The translations under genes and the position numbers were made by a program. From Aequorivita vladivostokensis (GTDB lineage Bacteria; Bacteroidota; Bacteroidia; Flavobacteriales; Flavobacteriaceae), in assembly GCF_000952855.1 (NCBI RefSeq), contig NZ_JSVU01000003.1:310001-374000 (forward strand): DNA of 64,000 nucleotides, given 5' to 3'. Under the pieces are notes generated by a model. It did no database searches and was not told the origin of the DNA. It saw only the letters and a program-made list of their open reading frames with translations. Shown in pieces: positions 3,053-28,746 of the stretch. Every line of letters starts with the position of its first letter. Within the stretch, counting starts at the first letter, position 1.

Positions 3053-3091
3053 AGAATTGATACTGATTTTCAGGTTTTTATTTTTCTAGTT

Positions 3092-3261: not shown

Positions 3262-3285
3262 AACCATTTAGTTATTTATATTGTT

Positions 3286-6200: not shown

Positions 6201-6507
6201 CTTCTTCTTTTGAACCTGTTCCATCATGACTTGCCCTGTTCCCAGATGTACGAATTGTATGGAGAATCCCTTTTACAATTTCTGGAAGAATGTTTTTGTA
6301 ATAAAGTTGATTGATTCTGTCAACCTGAGTTCCATGCAAATCTCCCATTTGCTCAAAGTCCCAGATCAATATGCTAATTTTTTCGGAAAATAGACGAGTC
6401 TTAGAAAGTGTGGAACTTGGATCAATATGAATCAATTCCTCAGCAATCTCACAGATAGTGAATAATTCCGGGTAGTCTTTTTGGAGAAACGAAAAACTGG
6501 AACTCAT
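3286..6507 (-). CDS. hsdR: Type I restriction enzyme endonuclease/translocase subunit HsdR
   Basis: ATP-dependent translocase and nuclease of the type I R-M system, 1073 aa. The first ~120 residues look like a DUF4145 domain. They are followed by a coiled segment and an HsdR_N nuclease domain with PD-(D/E)xK-type residues D242 and E256-A-K258. The superfamily 2 motor has Walker A ATGTGKT (400-406), DEAH (504-507), a GLTATP motif III and the QMIGRATRKCDEIG motif VI region. All motor and nuclease motifs are intact, so restriction activity is expected. It is the promoter-proximal gene of hsdR-hsdM-hsdS. The start ATG at 6507 follows an AT-rich ~200 bp gap. Confidence 0.97.
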   Translation of the reverse strand: MSSSFSFLQKDYPELFTICEIAEELIHIDPSSTLSKTRLFSEKISILIWDFEQMGDLHGTQVDRINQLYYKNILPEIVKGILHTIRTSGNRASHDGTGSKEEALFILKKSFQLAKWFYETYNNDYVEQKKYHLPERTQNNVEELTAQLEVISKQVVDYKNKIETLNQSKEVAEARKRRGENIAKNLDLNEKDTRLILIDPQLRASGWECNTETLNYKSNKTLPEKGRMMAIAEWPCDGKWADYALFIGKTLYGIVEAKKYASDISTDLRQSKIYAERLQQKEDMLFLSEWNNYKAPFLFSTNGREYLEQIKTKSGIWFLDVRNERNSAIALKGWFSPQGLIDLFEKDLDKVNNRLEKSDYDYLQDRNGLGLRDYQIEAIQEIEKKLINEPTDKRSLLVMATGTGKTRTVIGLTYRLIKANRFKRILFLTDRRLLATQALGNYKDNKIERLNTFGEVYHIDELKTRNPDSEARLHFATVQSMVKRLFYSEDNTLPIDTYDCIIIDEAHRGYNLDREMEDEDLQFKDQDDYVSQYKRVIEYFNAYIIGLTATPALHTTQIFGKPVFSYSYRQAVLEGYLADHEPPYRIKTRLSEEGILWKKGERPKVFNPETNKIEELAELEDDLLIEIEQFNKLVLTESFNRTVCKELVQHLDPESDEKTLIFAVRDSHADTIVKILKEEFAAIGMDVHQNAIQKITGNVYDPEQLTKEFKNEKYPNIAVTVDLLTTGIDVPKICNLVFLRRVGSRILYEQMIGRATRKCDEIGKEYFNIYDAVRVHEALGDYTQMTSVEKPSTSFVQLAEELDHIESDERIKTQIEQIIAKLQRKRRKIEENDIERFMYAADGLEPKEFIEKLKEIKASEAKQIIQSYGSLWNYLDTKVYRPKHQLVSEHEDEFYGIERDYGNAKKPEDYIENFKKFIEENRNKIAAIQIICNRPTSLDRQSLKELKLLLDQEGFNARTLHTAWKNAKNEDIAADIISYIRTLALDVHLVAHKDRIDNAFQKVYAMRTWNKIQQKWLERFHAQLIAETVLTKEDLDKNPFKEEGGFKRIDKIFENNLEEILKTINKNLYAEGA

Positions 6508-6712
6508 TAATCTTGTAAAATTGGTTAGTTAATTCCTCAAATATAAAACAATAAAAATCCATCCCACTACGGAAATCCGCATTGGCGACAAATTTTCTGG
6601 GGAGAACTCGAAAGATAAAATATTTTCCCTTTAAGAAAAATTTAAGATGTAGATAATCGATGAAATATGCCTCTGTAATTGCGGGAAGACTGAAAGCCAA
6701 CAGATTGCATTT

Positions 6713-7111
6713 TTACCGCTTCCGTGGCTCCTTTACCACATCTATGGATTTGCCTTTTAGCCAATTTTTCATTTCCGGGGTGGGCTGGTAGTTGATGTGG
6801 AACTTTTTTATCTCGTGCGGCCGCAACAATTCAGGACTGGGCTGGGGGGTGCTTTTAAAGCCCATCTTAAAGCGGCCAATGTTTTCGAGATTGATCACGT
6901 GGCCGTCTGCCAGCAGCTCCTTCATCTTATCGCCAAGGGCGGTGAGCACCGCTACCACGTCGGGCCGCTTTACGGTGCACTCATTGCTTATCAGGTAACT
7001 GAGCCGTTTAATATCTATCTCGCCCGTGCCAATGGCCTGCATGATGTAGTATTCCTGGCCCTCGGGGCCAATGTTGTCCTTGCGTTTGGTGATGCGGTAT
7101 TTGAGTGCCAT
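6713..7111 (-). CDS. HU-like histone-family DNA-binding protein
   Basis: Small DNA-binding protein of the Bacteroidota HU-related family (HU-HIG/TIGR01201 type), 132 aa. It has an HU fold core (about 25-105, including the segment around HVINLENIGRFKMGF) and a short C-terminal tail ending in basic residues (EPRKR). Such proteins are longer than canonical 90-aa HU and are thought to bend or compact DNA; individual members are mostly uncharacterised. The GC content is visibly higher than that of the flanking AT-rich spacers, as expected for a real gene. It is monocistronic, between hsdR and a 495-bp gene-free gap. Confidence 0.85.
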   Translation of the reverse strand: MALKYRITKRKDNIGPEGQEYYIMQAIGTGEIDIKRLSYLISNECTVKRPDVVAVLTALGDKMKELLADGHVINLENIGRFKMGFKSTPQPSPELLRPHEIKKFHINYQPTPEMKNWLKGKSIDVVKEPRKR

Positions 7112-7606
7112 GAAGATTGCTATTGAGTGAATGGTTAATTTCTAATAAAGCTCAGGTAATTGCAATGCAAAACACAGTTAGTTGCGTTTGCATCGCCCGT
7201 TTCTTGTAGCTAAAAGTAATATAATTATTGGAATAAAATTATAAAATTGTTGTGGTGGAATACTATAATTCTTGATAGGAAATTATATAATTTTTCACGA
7301 GGCTGTTTTTGGAGGAGAATAGCAGCCCAAGCGTGCGGTAGTAGCAAGATACGTATAAAATTGAAATGGATGTTGGTTTCTTATTATTTATTGACCTAAT
7401 TTTTTGAGCCATCATTTTGGAGTCAAAACGAAAATGAAATCGAAATCGAAATCGAAATCGAAAACGAAAACGAAAACGATATTGAATTTGAATTTGAATT
7501 TTAATGAAATGACTGAGATGAAAATAATGAGTCTATCGGGAAAGACGAGGGAAGAAACGCGGGGCAATCGCGCACCAACGGGGGCTTTTATCCATTTGTT
7601 AAAAAC
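7112..7606. other. 495-bp gene-free gap with a hexanucleotide tract
   Basis: No credible gene on either strand. The only plus-strand reading frame of any length is generated by the hexamer tract at 7425-7502. The stretch upstream of the HU-like gene (about 7112-7330) is AT-rich and must contain that gene's promoter, but I cannot place it confidently. Confidence 0.6.
7425..7502. repeat. In-phase hexanucleotide tract (13 degenerate units)
   Basis: Thirteen consecutive 6-bp units in perfect phase: AAAACG, AAAATG, four AAATCG, three AAAACG, ATATTG, two AATTTG, AATTTT. The units drift in blocks, as if the array arose by slippage and point change. It sits between the HU-like gene and the convergent side of the AHSA1 gene, not inside a credible coding sequence. 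Purine-rich on the plus strand. Confidence 0.85.
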
Positions 7607-8065
7607 TCACTTTTCGCAGTATTTTTTATAAGCCCCTAAAATATAGTCCCAACCCTGTGCGCTGGCCATCATTTCGCGATATTCAGCTGCTCCCTTGCCG
7701 TGGTTTTCAAAATTTCGGTGTTCAAAATATACTTTTGCTCCTTCGCCATTTTCCGAAAATACAATTTCAATATCACTTGCCTTTTCCGGATCGGGAACGG
7801 GTTCGCGGGTGGGGCTTATCTGCCATTTTAATTTTATTTTTTCGTTTTCTTCTAACTCAGTTACGCGCCCCCAATCACAACGAAAGCCGTAAGGCCCTAT
7901 TTCGGTACAGAGCCCGCCCTTTTGCCGGTCAATCCGAATTTCCTTGAGTTTGTCCTGCGACCAAGTGTATTCCTTTGGCCACCAGGCGTTGAGTTCGTTT
8001 AAAAATTTTTGGAAGGCCTTATCCCTTGCTATTCTAAGATTGAATTCCCTGCTTATTTTTTCCAT
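7607..8065 (-). CDS. SRPBCC / AHSA1-domain protein
   Basis: 152-aa protein with the START-like SRPBCC fold of the AHSA1 (activator of Hsp90 ATPase homologue) family: helix-grip pattern with the conserved N-terminal beta strand, an acidic/aromatic middle (KIKLKWQISP around 80-90) and a C-terminal long helix ending GWDYILGAYKKYCEK. Family members bind small hydrophobic ligands; substrate unknown. Its start lies 3 nt after the stop of the upstream membrane-protein gene, so the two form an operon. Confidence 0.75.
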   Translation of the reverse strand: MEKISREFNLRIARDKAFQKFLNELNAWWPKEYTWSQDKLKEIRIDRQKGGLCTEIGPYGFRCDWGRVTELEENEKIKLKWQISPTREPVPDPEKASDIEIVFSENGEGAKVYFEHRNFENHGKGAAEYREMMASAQGWDYILGAYKKYCEK

Positions 8066-8068
8066 TGT

Positions 8069-8626
8069 CTAAGATTTTGTTTTGTAAACAGTCTTTCTGT
8101 GGTTTAAAATTAATAAGGTGAGGATATAAATCAAAACGATGCCAAAGGGAATTGCTATAAACCTATATTCGGGCAGTAAGTACCAAAGGGCGAGTACCAA
8201 AATAGTTCGGATGAGGGCGTGAAAAATGCCGACCCAATGCTTTACGATCCAGGAAAACGGCAACCACATAAGTCCAGTGAGTATGCCGACGGTAAGGGGA
8301 AGAGAGGTATAGTCTATCAAAAAGAAGGGGATGGCAATGGAGTAAACAAGGATGGCCTGCCCAGCAGTATAAAGAAAAAGGGTATCGAATTCGTTTTTTG
8401 GCCTGCTCTTGTCGAGAAAGTTTTCGCCTGTGAATTTTGAAAGAAACAGGCCGAGATATACTATACTTCCCGTTCCAATAAATACAGCCCAAACGGCAAT
8501 AAAATCGGAAAAGAAAATGCCGGTTGTGCCAATCAAGGCCCAAATAATAAGACCGGCCAAGGGAGTAGCTAAAAATTTTTGGTTGATAAATTCAAGGCGC
8601 TGTTGTTCTAAGGTTCTATAGTCCAT
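8069..8626 (-). CDS. Multi-pass membrane protein of unknown function
   Basis: 185-aa integral membrane protein with about six hydrophobic segments (roughly 20-40, 43-63, 85-105, 110-130, 135-155, 158-178). I recognise it only as a conserved hypothetical, possibly DUF7010-like. It is the first gene of a two-gene operon with the AHSA1-domain protein (3-nt spacing). No catalytic motif or signal peptide is visible. Confidence 0.7.
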   Translation of the reverse strand: MDYRTLEQQRLEFINQKFLATPLAGLIIWALIGTTGIFFSDFIAVWAVFIGTGSIVYLGLFLSKFTGENFLDKSRPKNEFDTLFLYTAGQAILVYSIAIPFFLIDYTSLPLTVGILTGLMWLPFSWIVKHWVGIFHALIRTILVLALWYLLPEYRFIAIPFGIVLIYILTLLILNHRKTVYKTKS

Positions 8627-9028
8627 GGGTGCAATTCCGTCTATTTTAGTACTTATTTGAAGATTTAAATTTATTAAATATAATAATTATCCAATAGGAA
8701 CCGCACTTATTAAGTTTAAGGTAGAGGAAACAGGCTCACTAATTTATACCTATGAAATTCTGGATCTTGTGATTTTGATGTAGATAAAATGAAGTTGGGA
8801 AGTTTAAGATACGCAATTCATTAAAACTCAACTGCCGTCGACGGACACACTTATGAAAGTATCGAAGGATTGTGGGTTTTCTGAAACTTTAGTCTTTACA
8901 AGGGTCTTTTATGAGAGGCTTTATTGCTATTTGTAAATTTTTCAGGGGCCTACGGTATATTCTCGAGGCTTGTACAATGGGTTTAAAGCGCGACCATTGC
9001 GCATATATAAAGATTTGATTTTGCCCTG
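8627..9028. other. 402-bp gap without a recognisable gene
   Basis: AT-rich near 8640-8700, then mixed composition. I see no open frame with protein-like content and no strong hairpin. It may hold the promoter of the membrane-protein/AHSA1 operon at its left end and untranslated or decayed sequence in the rest. Confidence 0.5.
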
Positions 9029-16452: not shown

Positions 16453-16851
16453 TTATGCAAACTTAGGTGGCTGAAAAATTGAGAATTTTTCAAGTGAGGA
16501 GTATAGATTTTGATAGTGGAAGGTGTGCGATTGCCGTGCATGTATTTCCACCTTTACAATAGAAATTTCAAAAGGAACCAGCACCACATCTGTTGAAAGA
16601 TGGTGGCAGGAAATATGCTGAAAAGGTAATTCTTCATGCTCCTCGTCTTCCTCATTGTGATTTTTCTGGTGCTCCATTTTTAAGGAGCCGTAGTGTTTTT
16701 CAACGAAATTGAAGAAATCGTCGCCGTAATTTTTAGAGTGGTATTCAGCGTGCTGAACCAAGCGCCCAAGCAGAAAAATATCTTGCATGCCAAAACCTAC
16801 GCTTTGAAAAACGACAAGCAAGGAAAATGATATGGCAAACAGTGATTTCAT
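16453..16851 (-). CDS. Small exported His/Glu-rich protein next to the metal pump
   Basis: 132 aa with a signal peptide (MKSLFAISFSLLVVFQSVGFG). The middle is rich in His, Glu and Asp (EHQKNHNEEDEEHEELPFQH, about 59-78), with a CHH pair soon after and a C-terminal IFQPPKFA. I recognise the general type (short exported proteins upstream of CusA-like pumps in flavobacteria, often ending in PPK/R-x-A) but no named function. Acidic/His-rich composition suggests metal binding in the periplasm. About 140 bp upstream of the pump gene on the same strand, so possibly the first gene of the operon. Confidence 0.75.
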   Translation of the reverse strand: MKSLFAISFSLLVVFQSVGFGMQDIFLLGRLVQHAEYHSKNYGDDFFNFVEKHYGSLKMEHQKNHNEEDEEHEELPFQHISCHHLSTDVVLVPFEISIVKVEIHARQSHTFHYQNLYSSLEKFSIFQPPKFA

Positions 16852-18680: not shown

Positions 18681-18724
18681 CAAAATTGATTTTATTTATT
18701 TGAAAAAACAGTAACTTTTGTTAC
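18681..18724 (-). promoter_or_regulatory. Predicted Crp/Fnr-type operator plus -7 element for sqr
   Basis: Perfect palindrome GTAAC-TTTT-GTTAC at 18711-18724 (plus-strand reading), and 22 nt further downstream on the minus strand CAATTTTG (18688-18681), one base off TAnnTTTG. Same 44-bp architecture as four other sites in this block. The distance from the -7 element to the sqr ATG is about 90 nt. Confidence 0.75.
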
Positions 18725-18745
18725 ACAGCAGAAAAAACTTCTCCA

Positions 18746-19048
18746 TTAAAGCTTTTTATCAAGTCCGTTTCTTATAATCTTGACAGCAATCAAACCGATA
18801 ACAGCGCCTAATAGTGATACCGCCATATTAATTGCAAACAAAACAACATTTACGCCTCCAGATTCCATTATTGAAATAGGATCAAAACCAAGTTTTCCAA
18901 ATATTTTAATAAAGAAAATACTGCCGAAAATTCCTGCGATGGTATTTGCTGTAAATCCCATTGTATATTTTTTCTTAATGGTGCCATATACATTAGCTCC
19001 AATAATGCCAACAAAAATGCTGATAATTGCAATGAGTGTATCTGTCAT
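18746..19048 (-). CDS. Small membrane protein downstream of cydB
   Basis: 100-aa protein with three hydrophobic helices (about 3-22, 33-52, 66-92), glycine-rich faces and a basic tail (RNGLDKKL). It starts 23 nt after cydB stops and is on the same strand, so it should be co-transcribed with cydAB. No family recognised; a GlsB/YeaQ-like glycine-zipper protein is possible. Small accessory subunits (CydX, CydS, CydY) are known for bd oxidases but are much shorter with one helix, so a role in oxidase assembly is only a suggestion. Confidence 0.7.
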   Translation of the reverse strand: MTDTLIAIISIFVGIIGANVYGTIKKKYTMGFTANTIAGIFGSIFFIKIFGKLGFDPISIMESGGVNVVLFAINMAVSLLGAVIGLIAVKIIRNGLDKKL

Positions 19049-19071
19049 AATAAATGTATTTCAGAACACTG

Positions 19072-20148
19072 TTAATGTTCCCCATAGCCCACATCGCCCA
19101 TCTTCCCTTTAAAAATACGGTACTGAACAAACATATAAACAGCCACTAAAATGGCAGCAATTACAAACCAATATACACCAACTGACAATCCATATTCATG
19201 CGCAGCAACATTATAAAGCGTTAAGGAAGGATTTACATCATTGGTTGAAGGCAATACTTTTGGGAATATTGAGGCCACGGTAGTGGTTAATCCGCCAAAT
19301 AGAAACAAGGAAGAAAACAAAAAACCCACGCCATCCTTCTTGAAGGATTTCACTTTAAACAAACCGAAAAGTCCCGTGAAAGCAATGAGTGGGAAAATCC
19401 AAAGCCATGGGCGTTCTATAAAGTTATGAAAAGGTTTTGGTTCAATGATATGCCAGCTAAATAAAGAAATTACTACCAAAGCCAACATCACAAAATTTAA
19501 ATTAAAGATTACTTTTTTTAGCTTTTGATTTAAATCGGAATTGGTTTTGAAGATAATCCAATTTGCTCCGTGAATGGTTAATGCCACTACCCCTACCACC
19601 CCCAATAGCAGCGTAAACCAATCAATGATACCTAAATGTTCTGCATGGGGGCTAAAGGATGAATTCCAAAGTGGTAAAAAGAAATAATGGGGTTCGTGTT
19701 CAGAAACACCATCGGTTACCATTCCTAAATTCACGCCCCTAACTACATTTCCCAAAGCAATTCCAAAAAAAAGAGCCAATAGCAAACTTGCAATTCCAAA
19801 AGCTTTATCCCATATAGTTTCCCACATTTTGTTATGGATCTGCCCACGTAGTTCCAGACCAATTGCCCTAAAAATGAGGAGCCATAAAATCATAACCAAC
19901 GGTAAGTAAAAGCCACTAAATGATGATGCGTATAAAGTGGGAAAAGCAAAAAACAACACACCTCCAGCAGCAATAAGCCAAACTTCGTTGGCATCCCAGA
20001 ATGGGCCAATTGCGCTTGTAATAGCTTTTTTATCCTTTTCGGTTTTGGCAAAAAACAAATGGATGATGCCTGCACCAAAATCATAACCATCCAAAATAAC
20101 ATAGATGGTCAACATTGTCATTAAAACGATATACCAAAATAATTCCAT
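19072..20148 (-). CDS. cydB: Cytochrome bd oxidase subunit II
   Basis: 358-aa CydB, the haem-free structural subunit of the bd-type quinol oxidase. It has the diagnostic N-terminal DGYDFGAGIIH (about 20-30), GPFWDANEVW (about 48-57) and multiple membrane segments. It pairs with CydA, whose stop lies 2 nt upstream of this start. Driven from the operator-bearing cydA promoter. In this context it completes a quinol oxidase that, from studies of other bacterial bd oxidases, is expected to tolerate sulfide. Confidence 0.95.
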   Translation of the reverse strand: MELFWYIVLMTMLTIYVILDGYDFGAGIIHLFFAKTEKDKKAITSAIGPFWDANEVWLIAAGGVLFFAFPTLYASSFSGFYLPLVMILWLLIFRAIGLELRGQIHNKMWETIWDKAFGIASLLLALFFGIALGNVVRGVNLGMVTDGVSEHEPHYFFLPLWNSSFSPHAEHLGIIDWFTLLLGVVGVVALTIHGANWIIFKTNSDLNQKLKKVIFNLNFVMLALVVISLFSWHIIEPKPFHNFIERPWLWIFPLIAFTGLFGLFKVKSFKKDGVGFLFSSLFLFGGLTTTVASIFPKVLPSTNDVNPSLTLYNVAAHEYGLSVGVYWFVIAAILVAVYMFVQYRIFKGKMGDVGYGEH

Positions 20149-20150
20149 AG

Positions 20151-21485
20151 TTAGATTTGTTTTGTGGTTTCAGGCCCTTTATTGATGATTTTTCCTGCTA
20201 GCATTAAAAATAGCAATCCCAATAACAAATAAAGACCAATAAAACCAAGCAAGGTGAATAATGTGTTTCCCGATGAGACGGTTGGCGAAATGCCATCAGC
20301 AGTTCGCAAGAGATTATAAACCAACCAAGGTTGCCTACCCAATTCTGCGGTGTACCACCCTGTAGTGTTCGCTATATATGGAAATGGCAACATAAACATC
20401 AGAGACCATAAAATCCATTTGGTTTTATAGAGTTTCTTTCGGAGCAATTGAATGCTTGCAAGAAGCATTAAAGCAATAAAAATTGTACCCAAGCCAACCA
20501 TAATATGATATGAATAATACAATCCAGGAATGTTAGTGGGGTATATACTTTCATCAAATTCATTCAAGCCTTTTATTTTAGCATCCCATCGCTGATAAGT
20601 TAAAAAGCTCAACACATTTGGAACGGCAATTTTGTTGTCGAGTTTTTTATTTTCCGTATCTGGCTGACCAATTAAAATAATTTCAGAACCTTTATCTTCT
20701 GTTTCAAAAATTCCTTCCATAGCCGCGAAAGTTACAGGTTGATGTTTTACAACATTCTTAGCGGTCCAATCTCCTGTGGGAAAAGCCACCAAAACACTAG
20801 AAATCAAACCAAAAATCACTCCAGTTTTTACGAAAAGTTTTCCGAATTCACTATGTTTATTGCTTAACAGATAGAATGCGCCTATGGCTGCCACTACAAA
20901 AGATGCTGTAATAACTGAAGCCAATTGATTGTGCAAATAAGAAGGCAGCAACCAAGGGTTGGAAAACAGAGCCCCAAAATTGTTAAGCACAAATTTTCCA
21001 TTCTCTAAAATTTCATAACCTACCGGATGTTGCATCCAAGAATGGGTAGCTATAATTAAATAACCACTAGCCCAAGACCCTAAAAACACTAGAAATCCCG
21101 TTAGGAAATGGAGCTTTTGACCCATTAATTTTTCTCCAAAAAGGAACAATCCCAAAAACGAAGATTCAAGGAAAAAGGAAAACATCCCCTCCATTGCAAG
21201 GGTCTGCCCTATAATACCCCCTGTAAGCTCTGAAAACTTTGCCCAATTGGTTCCAAATTGAAATTCCATTGGAATTCCGGTAACAACACCCATTGCAAAA
21301 TTAAGTGCGAAAATCTTCATCCAAAATTTCGCGGCATCGTTGTATTTATCAATTTTGGTTCTTAGGAATTTCCATTTAAAATAGACAATCATTAAAGACA
21401 ATCCCATGGTCAATTGTGGAAATAAATAGTGGAAAGTGATAGTAAATGCAAATTGCATTCTATCATAAAAGAGCATATCTTCCAT
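20151..21485 (-). CDS. cydA: Cytochrome bd oxidase subunit I
   Basis: 444-aa CydA, the haem-carrying subunit that oxidises quinol and reduces O2 to water. Near the N-terminus is FHYLFPQLTMG (about 18-28), whose His is the haem ligand. EFQFGTNW follows around 79-86, and the GRQPW signature lies near residue 383. The periplasmic quinol loop is of the short (L-minus, CIO-like) type given the total length. First gene of cydA-cydB-(100-aa protein). The operator and -7 element at 21516-21559 lie 31-74 nt upstream of the ATG. Confidence 0.95.
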   Translation of the reverse strand: MEDMLFYDRMQFAFTITFHYLFPQLTMGLSLMIVYFKWKFLRTKIDKYNDAAKFWMKIFALNFAMGVVTGIPMEFQFGTNWAKFSELTGGIIGQTLAMEGMFSFFLESSFLGLFLFGEKLMGQKLHFLTGFLVFLGSWASGYLIIATHSWMQHPVGYEILENGKFVLNNFGALFSNPWLLPSYLHNQLASVITASFVVAAIGAFYLLSNKHSEFGKLFVKTGVIFGLISSVLVAFPTGDWTAKNVVKHQPVTFAAMEGIFETEDKGSEIILIGQPDTENKKLDNKIAVPNVLSFLTYQRWDAKIKGLNEFDESIYPTNIPGLYYSYHIMVGLGTIFIALMLLASIQLLRKKLYKTKWILWSLMFMLPFPYIANTTGWYTAELGRQPWLVYNLLRTADGISPTVSSGNTLFTLLGFIGLYLLLGLLFLMLAGKIINKGPETTKQI

Positions 21486-21515
21486 ACTTCAGAAAATTGA
21501 TGGTGAAAATCTAAA

Positions 21516-21559
21516 CAAAGATAAAAGATGCAGCTTCTTTATAATGCAACTTTTGTTAC
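21516..21559 (-). promoter_or_regulatory. Predicted Crp/Fnr-type operator plus -7 element for cydAB
   Basis: Palindrome GCAAC-TTTT-GTTAC at 21546-21559 (one mismatch to GTAAC) and TATCTTTG, a perfect TAnnTTTG, on the minus strand at 21523-21516. The gap is 22 nt, identical to the other four units. The site also lies in the divergent region with upp, but the -7 spacing fits only the cydA direction. Confidence 0.8.
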
Positions 21560-21561
21560 AG

Positions 21562-21595
21562 TTTGTAAAATATGCTGCTCCTTTTTCTACCTTTA
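21562..21595 (+). promoter_or_regulatory. Possible promoter of upp
   Basis: TTTG at 21562-21565 and TACCTTTA at 21588-21595 (one base off TAnnTTTG), 22 nt apart, about 50 nt upstream of the upp ATG. Fits the Bacteroidota -33/-7 layout; short motifs make this tentative. Confidence 0.4.
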
Positions 21596-21646
21596 TCTAA
21601 ATTATCCATATTTTGAACCTCAGAAAATACCAATCTATTTAAAACC

Positions 21647-22300
21647 ATGATAGTCCACGACTTCAGCAACGAAAATTCTGTTCTCAACCAATTTGTTCTG
21701 GAAATGCGCGATGTTTCCATTCAAAAGGATTCCATGCGCTTTCGGAAAAATATTGAGCGTATTGGGGAAATTCTCAGTTATGAAATGAGCAAAACACTGC
21801 ACTATAAAACGGAAGTGGTAAAAACGCCGTTGGGGGAAAAGGAAATGAAAGTACCCGAAACAGATATAGTAGTTTGTTCCATTTTACGGGCGGCCCTGCC
21901 CCTCCATACGGGGGTTATAAGTTTTTTTGACAAGGCCGAAAACGCCTACATCTCTGCATTCCGGCACCACGCGGATGGCGATGATGCCTTTGAAGTGGTA
22001 GTAAATTATCTGGCATCGCCCTCCATTGAGGGAAAAACCTTGATATTGACCGACCCGATGCTGGCAACGGGAAAAACGTTGGAAAACGTACTTAAAGCCT
22101 TTAAAAGTCACGGAACGCCAAAGCAAATCCATATTCTATCCATCATCGGCGCCAAACCGGGAATAGCTTATATCCAGGATAAATTTCCCGAAAATACACA
22201 TCTTTGGATAGCAGCCGTAGATGAAAAACTAAACAGCCGAGGCTATATTCTGCCTGGCTTGGGCGATGCTGGCGATTTGGCGTTTGGTGTGAAACTGTGA
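21647..22300 (+). CDS. upp: Uracil phosphoribosyltransferase
   Basis: 217-aa UPRT, pyrimidine salvage: uracil + PRPP to UMP + PPi. PRPP-binding loop LILTDPMLATGKTLE (about 131-145) and the uracil-binding C-terminal segment SRGYILPGLGDAGDLAFG are intact. It is the only plus-strand gene inside the sulfide/respiration block. Its stop codon directly abuts the stop codon of the convergent MBL/rhodanese gene, with no spacer at all. Probably unrelated to sulfur metabolism. Confidence 0.95.
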   Translation: MIVHDFSNENSVLNQFVLEMRDVSIQKDSMRFRKNIERIGEILSYEMSKTLHYKTEVVKTPLGEKEMKVPETDIVVCSILRAALPLHTGVISFFDKAENAYISAFRHHADGDDAFEVVVNYLASPSIEGKTLILTDPMLATGKTLENVLKAFKSHGTPKQIHILSIIGAKPGIAYIQDKFPENTHLWIAAVDEKLNSRGYILPGLGDAGDLAFGVKL

Positions 22301-23641
22301 TTATTTAAAATCCTCAACATCGTCGCTTAGATCATAAACTTTTTCAATCTTTAACTCTTTCTCCAGAATACTGCTGCCGGCAGCGCTGCGGTATCCTCCT
22401 GCACAATGTACCACTATGGGTTTGTCGGTAGGAATTTCATCTGCTTTCTCGCGCAATTGATGTAGTGGAATAGCAATGGCTTTGTCAAAGAATTTCTCTT
22501 CGGATACCTCACTTTCATTACGGATATCAACAATGGTGTACTTTTCTGTATTCTTTTTGAAATCCTCCAAATTGAAAGCAGCCGATTTTTCAAAACTGGC
22601 ACTCCCGAGGGTAAATACTGTTTTCACATTGGCTTCATAACCAATCTTAGCCGTACGGTGAAGAATTTTTTCAGCATTTTCAATGGAATCGACAACCAAA
22701 TGGAATTTCTCAACGGGCCGTACAATAGACCCCAACCAGGTTTCAAACTTTGATGTGTCGGAAGTAGCCATAATATTTATACTGCCCGGCAAATGGTTTT
22801 TCTTAAAATCTTCCTCATCGCGAATATCAATAATCAGGGCACCATTTTCGACCTTTTCAACATTCACCTTAAATGAAATACCGCCCAATGCAGTCCGCAG
22901 GTTTTTTGCGCCGTTTTTGTTTACGTCCACATTATACCCAAAATAATGCGGGATAAAAGGTTGGGAATCCAGCAAATGGTTTACAAACTGCTCCTCTGTC
23001 TGTTTTTTGAATGCCCAATTGCCAATGCGTTCGTTGCCCAGCGTACTTGAGGAGGCGTCCTCGCTCATCCCTTTTCCGCAGAGCGAGCCTGCGCCATGGG
23101 CTGGATAAACATAGGCGATGTCCGGCAGGTCGGTGAATTTGTTTTGAATGGTATCATACATCATTTTTGCAAGTTCCTCGCGTTTGGCCTTCATATGGCC
23201 GGCCTTTTCGCGCAGGTCTGGGCGGCCCACATCGCCCACAAAAAGGGTATCTCCCGTAAAAAGGGCGGTCTTGTTTTCTTCCGTGGCAACAATGGTAACG
23301 CTATCGGGCGAATGGCCCGGGGTATTTATAGCCCTAAAAGTGGTATTGCCCATTTTAACCTCATCGCCATCGTCAAAAGAGACGTGTGGGTAATCAGCGC
23401 CCGTTTTCTCACTGCAATATAGTTTTGCACCAGTTTCATTGTGAATTTGAAGGTGTGAACTCACAAAATCGGCGTGAGGGTGGGTTTCAAATACCGCAAC
23501 TATCTTGGCATTGTTTTCTTCGGCGTATTTGTAATACTGGATTGGGTTTCTTTCGGGATCTACCAAAGCCATTTTGCCATCGCTGATAATGGCGTATGAA
23601 AAATGTGAAAGAGGTTCGTATTCAAATTGTTTAATTTTCAT
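22301..23641 (-). CDS. MBL-fold persulfide-dioxygenase-like protein with two rhodanese domains
   Basis: 446 aa. The N-terminal metallo-beta-lactamase domain (1 to about 240) has THPHAD (H54, H56, D58), TPGHSPDS (H110), FTGDTLFVGDVGRPDL (D131) and YPAHG (H182), the metal ligands and GDVGRPDL motif of the ETHE1/BlhA group. Two rhodanese domains follow. The first (about 265-345) lacks a catalytic cysteine (VVDSIEN at that place); the second (about 355-446) keeps VVHCAGGYRSA with C413. Likely converts persulfide made by SQR to sulfite and moves sulfane sulfur. No GTAAC operator lies upstream; the peroxiredoxin terminator ends only about 27 nt before its ATG, so expression may depend on read-through. 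Confidence 0.88.
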   Translation of the reverse strand: MKIKQFEYEPLSHFSYAIISDGKMALVDPERNPIQYYKYAEENNAKIVAVFETHPHADFVSSHLQIHNETGAKLYCSEKTGADYPHVSFDDGDEVKMGNTTFRAINTPGHSPDSVTIVATEENKTALFTGDTLFVGDVGRPDLREKAGHMKAKREELAKMMYDTIQNKFTDLPDIAYVYPAHGAGSLCGKGMSEDASSSTLGNERIGNWAFKKQTEEQFVNHLLDSQPFIPHYFGYNVDVNKNGAKNLRTALGGISFKVNVEKVENGALIIDIRDEEDFKKNHLPGSINIMATSDTSKFETWLGSIVRPVEKFHLVVDSIENAEKILHRTAKIGYEANVKTVFTLGSASFEKSAAFNLEDFKKNTEKYTIVDIRNESEVSEEKFFDKAIAIPLHQLREKADEIPTDKPIVVHCAGGYRSAAGSSILEKELKIEKVYDLSDDVEDFK

Positions 23642-23667
23642 AATCCTTTTTATTTAAATATAATAAA

Positions 23668-23706
23668 AATCAGCCTTGGGGACAAAACCCCAAGGCTGAT
23701 TTTTTT
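23668..23706 (-). terminator. Strong hairpin terminator between peroxiredoxin and MBL/rhodanese genes
   Basis: Perfect 14-bp stem (23668-23681 with 23688-23701), 6-nt loop, T-rich on both sides (plus-strand T run 23701-23706, minus-strand TTTTTATTATA), so it could work in both directions. On the minus strand it follows the peroxiredoxin stop by about 7 nt and lies 27 nt before the MBL/rhodanese ATG. Confidence 0.85.
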
Positions 23707-23712
23707 AAGTGC

Positions 23713-24375
23713 TTAAATACTTTTCTTCGCCAAATACCAATCTACTTTTTCCAACGAATCGTCTGCCAATCTTTCATTAAGCTCATCCAATGTTTTTGGG
23801 GGCCCTACAATTACCTTATCCCCTTTTTTCCAATCCAAGGGCATTGCCACGCCATATTTATCTGATGTTTGAAGGGCATTCAGCGCACGTAAAATTTCAT
23901 CCATATTTCTACCCACATTTAATGGATAGTACATTATTAAGCGTATTTTCTTATTGGGATCGATAAAAAATACCGCGCGTACGGCAGCTGTTTCACTTTC
24001 ATTGGGTTGAAGCATCCCGTATAGTTTTGAAACCTTCATATCCAAATCTGCAATGATTGGGAAATCAAAATATACGCCTGTATTTTCCCTTACATTTTGA
24101 ACCCAGCCCAAATGTGCGTGTATGCTATCTATACTCAAACCTAAAAGCTCTGTGTTGAGTGCGTCAAACTCACCCTTTCGCTGTGCGAAACCACTCATTT
24201 CGGTGGTGCAGACAGGTGTAAAATCGGCTGGATGCGAAAACATCACTACCCATTTGTCCTTGGCAAAGTCTGAGAACTTTATTTTTCCTTTTGTTGTAAC
24301 TGCCTCAAAATCTGGTGCGTTATCTCCTATTCTCGGCATTGTGTTTACTTGTTGTAATTCTGAAGTTGTTTCCAT
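23713..24375 (-). CDS. 1-Cys peroxiredoxin (Prx6 type)
   Basis: 220-aa thiol peroxidase. Peroxidatic cysteine C56 sits in HPADFTPVCTTE; it is the only cysteine in the protein, so it is a 1-Cys enzyme needing an external reductant. The long C-terminal domain (about 160-220, KYGVAMPLDWKKGDKVIV) is typical of the Prx6 branch. It can reduce peroxides and, as known for some peroxiredoxins, possibly persulfides. Carries its own operator promoter (24412-24455) and a strong terminator immediately downstream. Confidence 0.93.
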   Translation of the reverse strand: METTSELQQVNTMPRIGDNAPDFEAVTTKGKIKFSDFAKDKWVVMFSHPADFTPVCTTEMSGFAQRKGEFDALNTELLGLSIDSIHAHLGWVQNVRENTGVYFDFPIIADLDMKVSKLYGMLQPNESETAAVRAVFFIDPNKKIRLIMYYPLNVGRNMDEILRALNALQTSDKYGVAMPLDWKKGDKVIVGPPKTLDELNERLADDSLEKVDWYLAKKSI

Positions 24376-24411
24376 AATAATTAATTTTAACTATTCTTTT
24401 TAAATTTTAGA

Positions 24412-24455
24412 TAAAATTAAGCTATAATGAATTTGTGTACAGTAACATAAGTTAC
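24412..24455 (-). promoter_or_regulatory. Predicted Crp/Fnr-type operator plus -7 element for peroxiredoxin
   Basis: Perfect palindrome GTAAC-ATAA-GTTAC at 24442-24455 and TAATTTTA (one base off TAnnTTTG) on the minus strand at 24419-24412, 22 nt apart. The palindrome ends 1 nt before the tauE stop codon, so it occupies the whole tauE-prx gap together with the leader. Confidence 0.78.
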
Positions 24456-24456
24456 A

Positions 24457-25269
24457 CTACTGTTTGACTATAAATTCCATATAGAAGATGAAGATGGCCA
24501 TTACAAAAATAAAATAGCCAAAAGCCTTTTTCAGTTTTTTTCCATCGATAAAATTCCCGAGATAGCTACCGATGAAAATACCTATCAGTGATATTGTTGT
24601 GATGGTCAATAGAAAATTCCAATCTATCTGTCGTACCAGGGCATCGCCCAGAAAAAAACCAATCAATGAATTTAGCGCAATAATAATGAGTGAAGTCCCT
24701 ACGGCCACCTTCATCTCTACATTGGCCAAAAGAACCAGGGCAGGTATTATCAAAAAGCCACCACCCGCACCAATGATACCTGTTACGGCGCCTAAAATCA
24801 ATCCCTCAATCAATATTAAAGGATAGTTGTACTTTACTTTTCCAGTAGTTTTTTTGGTTAGATTTTTTTTTCCATTTAGCATGGAAAAGGCAGCGGGAAT
24901 CATTAAAAGTGCGAAAAGACCAAACATCCCCATTCTTCGGGTGAGTTGGAATTGGCCTATGGTCAATAATACATCCGGCAAAGCGGGCACTAAATAATGC
25001 CTTACCAATGTAACCCCGATAATTGCCGGAAAACCAAATACAATTGCAGTCCGCAAATCTACATAGCCTTTGAAATATTGCTTTATTCCACCAACCAATG
25101 CGCTGGTTCCGACAATGAACAGTGAGTAAGCGGTCGCAGATTTTTCATCTACCGAAAATAAATAAGCCAAAACCGGTACTGCCAAAATAGAACCCCCGCC
25201 GCCAATAATGCCCAAGGATAAACCTATAAACAATGCGCTTATATATCCAAGGATTTCTATTAATGCCAT
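24457..25269 (-). CDS. TauE/SafE family sulfite/sulfonate exporter
   Basis: 270-aa membrane protein of the TauE/SafE family, with two repeated halves of hydrophobic helices containing the paired glycine motifs GIIGGGGSILAVPVLAYL (about 20-37) and GIIGAGGGFLIIPALVLL (about 161-178). It is predicted to export sulfite or organosulfur anions. Placed between the TPMT-like methyltransferase and the peroxiredoxin, with its own operator promoter 18-61 nt upstream, it would remove the sulfite made by the MBL/rhodanese protein. Substrate is inferred from context only. Confidence 0.88.
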   Translation of the reverse strand: MALIEILGYISALFIGLSLGIIGGGGSILAVPVLAYLFSVDEKSATAYSLFIVGTSALVGGIKQYFKGYVDLRTAIVFGFPAIIGVTLVRHYLVPALPDVLLTIGQFQLTRRMGMFGLFALLMIPAAFSMLNGKKNLTKKTTGKVKYNYPLILIEGLILGAVTGIIGAGGGFLIIPALVLLANVEMKVAVGTSLIIIALNSLIGFFLGDALVRQIDWNFLLTITTISLIGIFIGSYLGNFIDGKKLKKAFGYFIFVMAIFIFYMEFIVKQ

Positions 25270-25286
25270 AATTACGGGTTAAGGGT

Positions 25287-25330
25287 CAAAAATAGCTGGT
25301 TTAATTGAGGTATCAAGTAACATCGGTTAC
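25287..25330 (-). promoter_or_regulatory. Predicted Crp/Fnr-type operator plus -7 element for tauE
   Basis: Perfect palindrome GTAAC-ATCG-GTTAC at 25317-25330 and a perfect TATTTTTG -7 element on the minus strand at 25294-25287, 22 nt apart. The -7 element lies about 18 nt before the tauE ATG. Confidence 0.82.
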
Positions 25331-25344
25331 AATGTGGCTATGCC

Positions 25345-25926
25345 CTATTTTTTTGAAAGCATAAAAAACAGTTCATTTCCCGCTCTTTGTGGAATTGAAT
25401 TATAAGCGACCTCCATTGTCTCTATTTTAAATTTTTCTTTAAAAAGGGAGAGATACTCTGTTTTATTTCCCCCGAAAGGAGGTTTGTCATCATTTAAGGG
25501 AATATTGAAAAGTAATCCTACCAACTTGCCATTTGGCTTGAGCAGTTTGTGCATTTTATTTACATATTCTTCACGAAGTGATGGTTCCAGCGCACAAAAA
25601 AAAGTCTGTTCCAAAATCAGGTCGAAGGTGTCCTCCAATTCAAAAAAGTCGGCGTGCAAAAGGTTTTCCTTAGGAAATGACGGGATGCGTTCCACAAGAT
25701 TTTTTAAGGGAATTGATGAAATATCCACCACAAAAACATTGTTGAAACCGTTTTCAAAAAGGTATTCCGCCTCATAGGAATTACCGCCACCAGGGATCAA
25801 AATCTTTAAATTTTTATCTGAAAGTTGGTCGATGTATTCCTTTATTGGCTTAGAAACGCAGCCAATATCCCAGCCCGTTTCACCACTGAGGTATTTGTGG
25901 TTCCAAAAGGTTTCGTAATAATTCAT
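25345..25926 (-). CDS. TPMT-family SAM-dependent methyltransferase
   Basis: 193-aa thiopurine-methyltransferase-like protein: WNHKYLSGETGWDIGCVSKP at the N-terminus, SAM motif ILIPGGGNSYEAEYLFENGF (about 42-61), VVDISSIPL after it, and DLILEQTFFCALEPSLREEY (about 101-120). Bacterial TPMT relatives methylate thiols, sulfide, selenium or tellurium compounds. The start is 3 nt after the cytochrome c stop, so the gene is in the cytochrome operon under the same operator. Here methylation of sulfide or low-molecular thiols is a reasonable inference. Confidence 0.85.
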   Translation of the reverse strand: MNYYETFWNHKYLSGETGWDIGCVSKPIKEYIDQLSDKNLKILIPGGGNSYEAEYLFENGFNNVFVVDISSIPLKNLVERIPSFPKENLLHADFFELEDTFDLILEQTFFCALEPSLREEYVNKMHKLLKPNGKLVGLLFNIPLNDDKPPFGGNKTEYLSLFKEKFKIETMEVAYNSIPQRAGNELFFMLSKK

Positions 25927-25929
25927 ATG

Positions 25930-26955
25930 CTAATTTTCAAAACGGATACTCCAAATGCCGCGCACTTCATTTTCGCCGTAGCCAGTAGCCTTATCCATTG
26001 GGTACAGTTCCTGTATCTTGGACAAAGTAAGGGTTTCCAGTTCCTTTCCGGGCGTGCCGTGACATTTTAAGCACATGGAATTGGTAACGATGGGGTAATA
26101 AAATTCTGTTTCCTTGCCCAAATCAACCACAATCGGGTTTACCTCGCCTCCGGCAGCCACTTGTTTTTTGAAGTTTTCAAGATATTGTAGCTCTGCGGCA
26201 TTGGCTTTATTTTTTGGGTTTCTCGGTTTATCCGTAACGCGCTTAATATATGCTTTATGGACGGTAGCCATACTGTCTGTTATGGGCAAAGCCTGAACAT
26301 TACAAAAGTCTAGGGCGGCAATAACCCCGTTTTTCTGGATTTGGCCCATCAGGTTCTTTCCCAATTCGGCTTTGGTGGTCTGGGCCATTTGCATGCCGCG
26401 TTCCTTCACGGAAGGTTGCGCATTTGTATTTTGGTTTTTACCCATTCCTTTACCATTTCCCATTCCGCGACCCATTCGGCCCTTCATCTGCGGTCGGTCG
26501 CCGTGCATTTGCTTGTAGTGGGCATCAAACCATTCGGGCTCTTCTATATCATTATCAAACATATAATCTGCAATTTGCTTGATAGTCTCCTCTGGATAGA
26601 ATTGATAGGGCATTAAGCCAAATTTCTTGACCGCGCCGGGCATTTTTGATTTTTCCTCGGAAGGATTTTTTAAGAAATTGACGAAATTTTCCACAAACGC
26701 TTCCTTTGAAGTGTTTTCCGAAATATAATGCATCTTTACCGCTATCATAGGCGGGGCAATCATCGCTTCTTCCGAAATTTTTGGATTGTGGCAAACGTAA
26801 CAGTTGTTTTCCATCAATTTCTTGCCGGGATGTTCCTGAGGGCTTGTAAGTATTAAGTTTTCTGCATTTTCGGCAATCGCTAAATATTCGCTGCGGGGAT
26901 TGGTATTGCAGGCTGTGAATAAACTGATCAAAAATAATGTGGCTAAAAGTTTCAT
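25930..26955 (-). CDS. Di-haem-motif c-type cytochrome lipoprotein with Tll0287-like domain
   Basis: 341 aa from the ATG at 26955, chosen because it gives a clean lipoprotein signal (MKLLATLFLISLFTAC, C16); a longer frame would add 10 residues before it. Domain 1 (about 40-140) has CYVCH (C52, C55, H56). A Met/Gly/Lys-rich linker (about 156-176, with MKGRMGRGMGNGKGMG) follows. Domain 2 (about 185-341) is a DUF3365/Tll0287-like haem domain with CLKCH (C295, C298, H299). It is anchored in the periplasm or on the outer membrane. It may carry electrons or sense gas or redox state. First gene of a two-gene operon with the methyltransferase; its promoter carries the operator at 26983-27026. Confidence 0.88.
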   Translation of the reverse strand: MKLLATLFLISLFTACNTNPRSEYLAIAENAENLILTSPQEHPGKKLMENNCYVCHNPKISEEAMIAPPMIAVKMHYISENTSKEAFVENFVNFLKNPSEEKSKMPGAVKKFGLMPYQFYPEETIKQIADYMFDNDIEEPEWFDAHYKQMHGDRPQMKGRMGRGMGNGKGMGKNQNTNAQPSVKERGMQMAQTTKAELGKNLMGQIQKNGVIAALDFCNVQALPITDSMATVHKAYIKRVTDKPRNPKNKANAAELQYLENFKKQVAAGGEVNPIVVDLGKETEFYYPIVTNSMCLKCHGTPGKELETLTLSKIQELYPMDKATGYGENEVRGIWSIRFEN

Positions 26956-26982
26956 ATTTTGAGTATAAAGTTGTGGACAATT

Positions 26983-27026
26983 CAAAAATAAAGGGAAACT
27001 TCACGCTTGGCAGTAACAAAAGTTAC
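26983..27026 (-). promoter_or_regulatory. Predicted Crp/Fnr-type operator plus -7 element for the cytochrome operon
   Basis: Perfect palindrome GTAAC-AAAA-GTTAC at 27013-27026 and a perfect TATTTTTG on the minus strand at 26990-26983, 22 nt apart. It lies between the regulator's stop codon (27072) and the cytochrome gene. Confidence 0.82.
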
Positions 27027-27071: not shown

Positions 27072-27704
27072 TTAAAGAGAAACTATTTTAATGCTATTTC
27101 GGTTAAGTTCGATTTTCCCCATGGATTCCAGCTTCTTCAACAAACGCGACACCACCACGCGCGAGGTGTGAAGCTCATACGCAATTTCCTGATGCGTGGA
27201 ATTGATCAGGGAATCATTGGTTACCTTTTTTTTGTTTTGAAGGTATTTCACCAAGCGCTCGTCCATATTGTAAAATGCGATGCTGTCAATGGTTTCAAGC
27301 ATTTCGGTAAGGCGGGCGTGGTAACTTTGAAAAACGAAGTTGCGCCAACTTTTATACTTGCCCGTCCACTCCTCCATTTTTTGGATGGGTATCATAATCA
27401 AAGTGGTGTCGAGCTCTGCGATGGCTCGGATCTCGCTTTTGGTCTGCCCCAAACAACAGGTTAGGGTCATGGCACAGGTATCGCCGCGCTCCAAAAAATA
27501 GAGCAGCAGTTCGTCCCCGTCGTCGTCTTCCCTTAAAATTTTTATGGCCCCCTTGAGGAGCAAGGGTATGGAGCGTACGTAATCGCCAATCTCAATTACC
27601 TTTTCGCCTTCCTTTACTTCCTTTAAAACACCTACTTGGCCAATTTCATCAATTAGGGCGTCCTCAAAAATATGGGAGAAGTTTTCCTTTAAATTATCGA
27701 GCAT
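27072..27704 (-). CDS. Crp/Fnr-family regulator with a Cys cluster
   Basis: 210 aa from the ATG at 27704; a longer upstream frame would overlap mlaD and adds no family-like residues. N-terminal cyclic-nucleotide-binding-like beta-roll (about 20-115), long dimer helix (about 115-150), winged HTH (about 165-205). The cNMP pocket carries DTCAMTLTCC (C77, C83, C84) instead of a cAMP-binding Arg-Ser, so a thiol/redox, persulfide or haem/NO input is more likely than cAMP. In the recognition helix TSRVVVSRLL the glutamate of CRP/FNR (E181 in CRP) is V183 while the preceding Arg (R182) is kept, consistent with a GTA-N8-TAC type operator. Adjacent to five such sites. Ends 45 nt from the cytochrome operator. 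Confidence 0.9.
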   Translation of the reverse strand: MLDNLKENFSHIFEDALIDEIGQVGVLKEVKEGEKVIEIGDYVRSIPLLLKGAIKILREDDDGDELLLYFLERGDTCAMTLTCCLGQTKSEIRAIAELDTTLIMIPIQKMEEWTGKYKSWRNFVFQSYHARLTEMLETIDSIAFYNMDERLVKYLQNKKKVTNDSLINSTHQEIAYELHTSRVVVSRLLKKLESMGKIELNRNSIKIVSL

Positions 27705-27759
27705 TATCACTTTGTTTGGTTGGTTTTTTTTTTGACTTACGAAAATACCGAATTTAAAA

Positions 27760-28746
27760 TTAATTTTTCCTGGCTTCCCGCCTTTCCTGTCGCTCCAGTT
27801 TTCTGAAATAACCGCGGAAAAGGAAATTGTGCCGCAGCGCTTCCATATTTTCATTCAATTTCTCGGCAGCTTCTTTTATATCCAGCATCGTGGAATCGAT
27901 ATTCTTGACCAAAACCTCATCTTGCGTAATGTAATTCAAAGCACCTTTTCCCGATTTTATTTCGGAGAGATAGGCATCGAGATTTTGGGTTATTTCATTA
28001 ATGTCCTCGCTCGATTTTTCAAGATTGCTGAATACGCCCCTTATTTGGTTGGCAGAAACCGTATCGCTCAAAAGCACGGCCGCCGCACTTTCATCATAAT
28101 TGACTTTTGAAATAAGGGCGTTAATGCGCGCAACCGCCGTGGAAGTACCCGCAGCGGTTTGTTTGAGTTCAATTACCGTCTGCCTTAAATCCTGGGCCAG
28201 CAAGGTATCGGTTACCAAGGCGCCCAAAGTGCCTTTGCCCTCAAGGATTTTATTGGTAATCTTCAACAGATCGGCGGTGAGCAAGGCGGCGTTTTCATTG
28301 GTGGTGTTCAGGGTGGAGAGCATATCGTCGGCGCCAATCTTGCTGTAAGACTGGATGGTATCGCCGGAAATTACGGGTTTGGCACTGGCAACTTTCCCTG
28401 GAATAATGTTCACGACCATGCTTCCCACCAAGCCATCGGAACCGATGGAAGCAATAGCATCGGTTTTAATGAATCTTGCCGTTTTTTCCTCAATCATCAT
28501 TTGGATGGTGATGCTTCCCTCCTCGATCATTTCAATCTTGCTTACGGTGCCCACGTTTATACCGGAGTAACGCACGTTGTTGCCTATAATCAAACCATTT
28601 ACGTTCCCAAAGGTAGCGTAGAGCGCAATGTTTTTGCTGAAAATATGCTGTCGGTTGCCGATGGAATAAAGCGCCGCAATAAGAATGGCGGTGCCCACCA
28701 CTACGAAAAGACCGACTTTTATTTTTTGGGAAGTTGATTTAGCCAT
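27760..28746 (-). CDS. mlaD: MlaD/MCE-domain lipid-transport protein
   Basis: 328-aa periplasmic substrate-binding component of an Mla-type lipid transporter: single N-terminal membrane anchor (about 8-28, KVGLFVVVGTAILIAALYSI), MCE domain (about 38-118), then a long helical region with coiled-coil character (about 140-315) and a basic C-terminus (RRERREARKN reading near EARKN). Last of mlaE-mlaF-mlaD, 5 nt after mlaF. Works with the ATPase and permease to move phospholipids between outer and inner membrane. The Crp/Fnr gene follows after 55 bp. Confidence 0.9.
   Translation of the reverse strand: MAKSTSQKIKVGLFVVVGTAILIAALYSIGNRQHIFSKNIALYATFGNVNGLIIGNNVRYSGINVGTVSKIEMIEEGSITIQMMIEEKTARFIKTDAIASIGSDGLVGSMVVNIIPGKVASAKPVISGDTIQSYSKIGADDMLSTLNTTNENAALLTADLLKITNKILEGKGTLGALVTDTLLAQDLRQTVIELKQTAAGTSTAVARINALISKVNYDESAAAVLLSDTVSANQIRGVFSNLEKSSEDINEITQNLDAYLSEIKSGKGALNYITQDEVLVKNIDSTMLDIKEAAEKLNENMEALRHNFLFRGYFRKLERQERREARKN

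Follow-up and report, generated by a model that had tools for sequence, protein, structure and literature searches.

A predicted sulfide regulon with class II promoter units and a cysteine-bearing Crp/Fnr regulator in Aequorivita vladivostokensis and its relatives

Are five promoter units of one design, each standing before genes of sulfur metabolism or respiration, controlled by one protein, and which protein would this be? The question is raised by a stretch of 64,000 nucleotides (nt) of Aequorivita vladivostokensis (hereafter the window; C3:310001-374000 of a 3.27 Mb genome). Each unit comprises a GTAAC-N4-GTTAC palindrome, 22 nt and a TAnnTTTG box, 44 bp in all. The units were read as class II promoters of one regulon, probably controlled by the adjacent Crp/Fnr protein, with a sulfur signal received through its cysteines. 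This reading draws on the units and their constant geometry, their co-occurrence with the regulator, the sulfur genes behind them, the conservation of the cysteines and the covariation of operator and recognition helix.

Promoter units in the window, the genome and the family

The five palindromes, their sequences, strand and 22-nt spacers had been described in an earlier note made from the letters of the window, and all were reproduced exactly (Table 1). No further unit was found in the window at ≤2 mismatches. As a total for the regulon the five fell short, as the genome has seven. Genome-wide, the composite matched 46 sites in all: 3 at 0 mismatches, 4 at one, 0 at two and 39 at three. The seven units at ≤1 mismatch were all on the minus strand and within 37 kb (C3:300556-337026). 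The two extra units were located outside the window, approximately 9 kb to its left. One precedes an efflux operon of RND type, in which an outer-membrane efflux gene is followed by membrane-fusion and RND-like genes that were named by reading; the other precedes a DUF302 gene. McrBC-type and type I restriction-like genes (L056 = C3:303001-312000, open reading frames (ORFs) 826-8942; L, G and C numbers are our handles for loci, genomes and contigs) separate the two outlying units from the five of the window, which gives the appearance of an island inserted within the unit cluster.

Chance palindromes in AT-rich DNA were weighed as an explanation. In favour of chance, the bare palindrome was no commoner in the genome than in a backwards-read control (6 vs 11), and neither was the composite at ≤3 mismatches (46 vs 80). 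At ≤1 mismatch the composite was found 7 times vs once in the control; given the 80 control sites at ≤3 mismatches, all of the excess is confined to ≤1 mismatch. A perfect palindrome at C1:324077 was rejected as a unit and treated as chance; it lies inside an integrase-like ORF and is absent from the composite sites at ≤3 mismatches.

Spacing was counted in two sets of loci that share genomes and are both centred on the regulator. In 80 named loci (1.48 Mb around regulators), GTAAC-N4-GTTAC was present 195 times, whereas 59 permuted half-sites averaged 1.37 and reached 8 at most. Centre lengths other than N4 gave 0-3 palindromes each. TAnnTTTG started exactly 22 nt after the palindrome 100 times, and at any other distance 0-3 times. 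In 60 stretches, 59 of which contained a regulator, 123 palindromes were found vs 3 in the control, with TAnnTTTG at 22 nt 61 times and at other distances 0-2 times.

Because these sets are centred on the regulator, genome-wide co-occurrence was used as the independent test. A regulator match at E ≤ 1e-20 was present in 103 of 120 family genomes. Close orthologues, defined by E ≤ 1e-50, were present in 95; the 25 others comprised 17 genomes without a match and 8 with a distant relative or fragment only. Units at ≤1 mismatch were carried by 98 genomes in total. They were found in 94 of the 95 orthologue genomes (444 units vs 31 in the control) and in 4 of the 25 others (5 units vs 5). Genome size does not explain the difference: 5 units (control 5) were found in the 13 genomes of 2.5 Mb or more that lack an orthologue, and 36 (control 1) in the nine genomes below 2.5 Mb that have one.

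Chance was rejected on the composite at ≤1 mismatch, the spacing, the half-site permutations and the distribution over the 120 genomes, and we regard its probability as negligible. The statement of the earlier note that chance was very unlikely is thereby borne out, and the Flavobacteriaceae scan that it proposed gave a motif far from equally common at random positions.

The regulator, its cysteines and the operator letters

The sigma-A box TAnnTTTG of Flavobacterium psychrophilum lies at -12 to -5 by start-site mapping, according to excerpts of a published study (PMC9723704). No word in the main text of that study begins with CRP, FNR, GTAAC or sulfide. With the box in this position, the 22-nt spacer places the 14-bp operator at -48 to -35, with its centre at -41.5; a centre near -41 had been proposed earlier. 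From work on CRP, we take -41.5 to be the position of class II activators. Both an operator centre near this position and a fixed distance to the -7 box were thus found, with the -7 position derived from F. psychrophilum. In 146 distinct perfect units, T precedes the palindrome in 83% and T and G follow it in 65% each. This TG falls at the possible start of a -33 element; elsewhere in the spacer no signal of like strength was seen. Since the exact distance is kept, contact with the polymerase, and hence activation, is suggested. The tests made support one Crp/Fnr regulator that would act from the class II position; so far as sequences go, the mechanism put forward in the earlier note appears right.

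In four places (G385:C1:2653669-2653742, G086:C1:125105-125178, G087:C1:2569523-2569596 and G058:C131:10522-10595) a single palindrome is flanked on either side, at 22 nt, by a -7-like box. Such an operator may act at two class II promoters that diverge from it.

The regulator gene is adjoined directly downstream by unit 5. Its product scored 38.1 for PF00027 (cut-off 27.5) and 36.7 for PF13545 (cut-off 27) and gave a template-modelling (TM) score of 0.81 to PDB 3dv8, which places it in the Crp/Fnr superfamily. The AlphaFold model has a mean predicted local distance difference test (pLDDT) value of 88.6, lowest at residues 71-90. By regulator, the closest relative is Aequorivita aquimaris D-24 (98%). 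Scanned as the 260-aa ORF 27072-27854, the protein remained below the NCBIfam equivalog cut-offs of CRP (49.5 vs 266 bits) and NtcA (41.3 vs 244.95 bits) and below the FNR cut-off (20.8 vs 228 bits), and membership of these three families was ruled out. FNR-type N-terminal cysteines are absent, the first cysteine being residue 77. Of the NtcA likeness drawn in the earlier note, the recognition helix stands and the family membership does not.

The C-x5-C motif is near-invariant and is located in the effector-site loop, the loop in which CRP binds cyclic AMP. In alignments that each include the query, Cys77, Cys83 and Cys84 were kept in 60, 60 and 59 of 60 sequences, in 81, 81 and 79 of the 81 in the named set, and in 29, 28 and 28 of 29 in a phylum-wide sample of best matches that is still rich in family members. 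A conserved cysteine pair or trio, as expected of a persulfide regulator, is thus present.

Among five HTH_Crp_2 hits in the genome, the two other proteins above the cut-off have different recognition helices. The two weak hits are a cNMP-like protein with another helix and a protein unlike Crp by reading. The other Crp/Fnr proteins of the genome were set aside as operator binders because of these helices. A receiver-cNMP-HTH hybrid regulator, also with a differing recognition helix, was seen beside universal-stress-like proteins (L055 2897-4018, minus strand), approximately 12.5 kb from the nearer outlying unit.

Residue 183 is Val in most of the regulators, and Glu in some relatives outside the family and in genus g120 inside it. 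Where Glu replaces Val183, the spaced operators read GTGA..TCAC in place of GTAA..TTAC; geometry is unchanged and the downstream genes are similar, with exceptions. The phylum test loci were 60 stretches around the better matches only. Four of these were unclassable by helix pattern, and G395 (Glu at 183) was placed in the Glu set by eye. When all 1024 half-sites at N4 were enumerated in 20 neighbourhoods, GTAAC came first in the Val group (13), and in the Glu group GTGAT shared third place (4), after two words of low complexity. Once TTTG had to stand at the -7 distance, separation in the neighbourhoods was complete: 8 GTAA and 0 GTGA units in the Val group, 0 and 10 in the Glu group. With the full TAnnTTTG the figures were 6 and 0, and 0 and 5. 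Among 24 loci of regulators lacking C-x5-C, one has a spaced unit (L312, -7 box off consensus).

The genome-wide operator test comprised 32 genomes, 11 of them Val and 21 Glu (six in the own family, genus g120); G218 and G263 (Cx5C, helix HREAISR) were left out of the counts. Perfect units numbered 16 GTAA and 2 GTGA in Val genomes, and 2 and 17 in Glu genomes (P = 1.7e-6 by unit, kinship ignored). The two perfect GTAA units of G385 share a single palindrome. At ≤1 mismatch, Glu genomes contained 83 GTGA units (control 11) and 47 GTAA units (control 47), and Val genomes 35 GTAA units (control 14) and 10 GTGA units (control 3). By reading, the 11 switched GTGA units (including that of L302) precede peroxiredoxin, OsmC-like and regulator genes (2 each) and MBL-rhodanese (MBL, metallo-beta-lactamase), rhodanese, YeeE-type, SulP and DUF202-like genes (one each). 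In CRP, Glu181 goes with TGTGA. The covariation agrees with this rule and ties the regulator to the operator, if indirectly.

Two further observations were made on operator letters. Val183 relatives without the cysteines (15 loci: L283, L289-L291, L295, L296, L298, L301, L303, L307-L309 and L313-L315) have 15 GTAA palindromes and 1 GTGA palindrome, none at 22-nt spacing, and possibly use the same half-site with another promoter geometry. Hybrid operators GTAAC-N4-GTCAC were found in five g120 genomes (G144, G287, G322, G334 and G338), in which the regulator has Glu183 and C-x5-C and lacks Cys84.

Predicted regulon and competing explanations

Downstream genes were collected from 294 units linked to a regulator (279 with an ORF, 15 without) and 45 unlinked units (41 with, 4 without). 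An ORF was required to start with ATG, to encode 60 aa and to lie within 300 nt, and units sharing the first 70 nt were merged. Unlinked units came from 40 stretches picked among the sites listed, outside 18-kb neighbourhoods; most were on other contigs or distant, and some (such as G049) were within approximately 30 kb. Products were clustered by single linkage, and clusters without a Pfam scan were named by reading. Behind the 279 linked units, the largest clusters were TauE/SafE (67), a mixed cluster of MBL-rhodanese proteins, rhodaneses and rhodanese-fused flavoproteins (66) and flavoproteins of the sulfide:quinone oxidoreductase (SQR) type (22). These were followed by cytochrome c-like proteins (17), peroxiredoxin (15), YeeE-type sulfur transport (14) and outer-membrane efflux proteins (11), and by the regulator's own cluster (9), SulP (9), DUF983 (7), sterol desaturase-like proteins (7) and CydA (6). 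The 41 unlinked units precede members of the rhodanese cluster (6), efflux (5) and DUF983 (5), TauE, YeeE, CydA and a YgaP-type membrane protein (2 each), a molybdenum oxidoreductase and a DsrE-like protein (1 each), and others without an evident sulfur role, such as thioredoxin-like proteins (3) and aldehyde dehydrogenase (2). Sulfur or respiratory genes were thus common downstream both near and away from the regulator, and the predicted regulon contains the sulfide and persulfide oxidation genes expected of a persulfide regulator.

In the proposed mechanism, a homodimer of the 210-aa Crp/Fnr protein would bind TGTAAC-N4-GTTACA-like sites at -41.5, beside or over the -33 element, and would keep RNA polymerase at the -7 box TAnnTTTG of the Bacteroidota. 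Among the genes switched on, SQR would oxidise sulfide and the MBL-rhodanese protein persulfide, and TauE, joined in relatives by SulP, YeeE and molybdenum oxidoreductases, would act in moving or oxidising sulfite and other sulfur compounds. Further genes would remove peroxides, supply cytochrome bd and pump compounds out. Cytochrome bd is a sulfide-tolerant oxidase. The signal, the least certain step, would be a persulfide or polysulfide that arises from sulfide and reacts with Cys77 and Cys83, and usually also with Cys84. Both the binding of the operators by the regulator and the activating effect of that binding are predicted from sequence comparison, as is the sensing of sulfur species by the cysteines.

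The strongest competitor keeps regulator, operator and activation and changes the signal: the cysteines would hold an iron-sulfur cluster or a heme, or would pair in a simple disulfide, the protein would sense oxygen, nitric oxide or redox state, and the sulfur genes would respond within a low-oxygen programme. The genes cydAB, peroxiredoxin and the cytochrome c-like gene are plausible targets of such a sensor, FNR proteins are distant relatives in sequence and fold, and CooA, a heme sensor, is also among the sequence matches. Against this, the commonest downstream clusters are rhodanese/MBL, TauE and SQR-type flavoproteins, CydA follows only 8 of 320 units with an ORF, and the regulator lies far below the FNR cut-off and has no cysteine before residue 77. 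We consider an oxygen or redox sensor unlikely, though it deserves consideration. Still less probable is repression, in which the operator beside the -33 region would block the polymerase until sulfide releases the regulator. Excerpts of a review (PMC9774590) call SqrR, BigR and CstR repressors, and the operator adjoins the expected -33 element. A repressor would need no exact distance to the -7 box, yet the units show a strong preference for 22 nt (61 and 100 vs ≤2 and ≤3 at any other distance); the operator centre falls at the class II activator position, and the same excerpts give FisR as a precedent for a sulfur-responsive activator. That another DNA-binding protein uses the operator, with the adjacent regulator a bystander, appears slightly more improbable again: co-occurrence across the 120 genomes, the covariation of residue 183 with the spaced operators, the other helices of the genome's remaining Crp/Fnr proteins and the single spaced unit (L312) among the 24 loci lacking C-x5-C all speak against it.

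Several observations nevertheless weigh against control of the units by a Crp/Fnr sulfur sensor with a switched operator. Some units precede genes without an evident sulfur role (aldehyde dehydrogenase, DUF983, sterol desaturase-like), and one family genome, G045, has an orthologue but no unit. Some relatives, genus g120 among them, have another residue in place of Cys84, and G119 is substituted at 83 and 84. GTGAT was the second commonest half-site (6) in the Val group. Bare GTGA palindromes do not separate the types (12 in 11 Val loci, 23 in 22 Glu loci; bare GTAA palindromes, 18 and 17), and a spaced GTGA unit was near only 8 of 22 Glu183 Cx5C loci and a spaced GTAA unit near 6 of 11 Val183 loci. 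Counted by genome, the perfect units gave a weaker contrast (10/1 vs 2/5, P = 0.013, kinship ignored). G279 (Glu183) has two perfect GTAA units, and G121 and G160 (Val183) have one perfect GTGA unit each.

Table 1. Promoter units, regulator and genes of the cluster, in window positions
Feature	Position	Strand	Details
Unit 1	18681..18724	-	Operator 18711-18724, 22 nt, -7 box CAATTTTG (18681-18688); upstream of sqr
Unit 2	21516..21559	-	Operator 21546-21559 (one mismatch, GCAAC), 22 nt, TATCTTTG; upstream of cydAB
Unit 3	24412..24455	-	Operator 24442-24455, 22 nt, TAATTTTA; upstream of peroxiredoxin and persulfide dioxygenase-like gene
Unit 4	25287..25330	-	Operator 25317-25330, 22 nt, TATTTTTG; upstream of TauE/SafE
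Unit 5	26983..27026	-	Operator 27013-27026, 22 nt, TATTTTTG; upstream of cytochrome c and thiopurine S-methyltransferase
Crp/Fnr-type regulator, 210 aa (start MLDNLKEN)	27072..27704	-	PF00027 and PF13545 above cut-off; Cys77, Cys83, Cys84; recognition helix SRVVVSR
SQR-like flavoprotein, 485 aa	17134..18591	-	PF07992; closest PDB sequences sulfide-quinone reductases, best 1.3e-36
Small protein, 100 aa, after cydB	18746..19048	-	No family match
CydB, cytochrome bd subunit II	19072..20148	-	PF02322
CydA, cytochrome bd subunit I	20151..21485	-	PF01654
MBL with two rhodanese domains, persulfide dioxygenase-like	22301..23641	-	PDB 3tp9, 3r2u and BpPRF 5ve3 by sequence
Peroxiredoxin (1-Cys C-terminal domain)	23713..24375	-	PF00578, PF10417; NF009668 above cut-off
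TauE/SafE sulfite exporter family	24457..25269	-	PF01925
Thiopurine S-methyltransferase family protein	25345..25926	-	PF05724
Cytochrome c-like protein, two CxxCH motifs	25930..26955	-	Translation from internal ATG; weak NCBIfam match below cut-off

The gene names sqr, cydAB, peroxiredoxin, TauE/SafE and thiopurine S-methyltransferase, as assigned earlier, held by Pfam or PDB sequence match; the name cytochrome c rests on the two CxxCH motifs. The sqr product matches the NCBIfam SQR model below the cut-off of that model. Transcription from the peroxiredoxin unit probably continues across a 71-bp gap into the following MBL/rhodanese gene. Another small protein without a Pfam match lies in or beside the cluster (window 16453-16851).

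Comparison with known systems and significance

Work on Escherichia coli CRP has given an operator geometry of TGTxA-N6-TxACA, a class II centre at -41.5 and a recognition-helix Glu that goes with TGTGA. The regulator described here resembles CRP in fold and in these three respects, and differs in failing the CRP model, in its cysteine-bearing effector loop and in the Bacteroidota -7 box. Cyanobacterial NtcA binds GTA-N8-TAC, which the window operator contains, and the aligned NtcA helix TRVTVTR resembles SRVVVSR; the failed NtcA cut-off, the predicted sulfur targets and the cysteines set the regulator apart. FNR shares the Crp/Fnr fold and class II activation. It uses the operator TTGAT-N4-ATCAA, and its N-terminal cysteines ligate a 4Fe-4S cluster, whereas the window regulator has no such cysteines, falls below the FNR cut-off and has another predicted operator. 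PDB 3dv8, a putative Crp/Fnr-family protein of Eubacterium rectale, is the best PDB match by sequence (3.7e-30) and by fold and shares C-x5-C; it comes from another phylum, has no Cys84 and has the recognition-helix residues H-R-E-V-I-T-R. The cysteine loop may thus be older than the Bacteroidota.

In the excerpted review (PMC9774590), SqrR, BigR, CstR and FisR respond to sulfide or sulfur species through two or three conserved cysteines, and SqrR and FisR act on sulfide-oxidation genes. The sensors named there are ArsR, CsoR and Fis-type proteins, none of them Crp/Fnr; the protein described here is of the Crp/Fnr type, and sulfur sensing by it is predicted. Further sensors of sulfur species given in abstracts are of the MarR family or are OhrR, PerR, AdpA and LasR, again none of them Crp/Fnr. 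Searches of open-access literature found, by title and abstract opening, no description of such a Bacteroidota regulator, and prior work may exist.

Beyond the first observation, the motif has now been tested over the whole genome and across genomes, the operator centre has been placed at -41.5 with the help of published mapping, and the cysteine loop and the switch in operator letters have been described. The motif, the list of regulon genes, the candidate sensing residues and the specificity switch found in nature can each be tested by ordinary methods. We give about even chances to the broader proposal that a Crp/Fnr subfamily across the Bacteroidota is a direct persulfide sensor and master activator of sulfide oxidation, in which the cyclic-nucleotide pocket has given way to a C-x5-C(C) thiol site and one Val/Glu change has, in evolution, switched the operator between TGTAA and TGTGA while geometry and sulfur targets stay fixed. 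If this is true, the Bacteroidota would gain a sulfide regulon with a control protein of the Crp/Fnr type.

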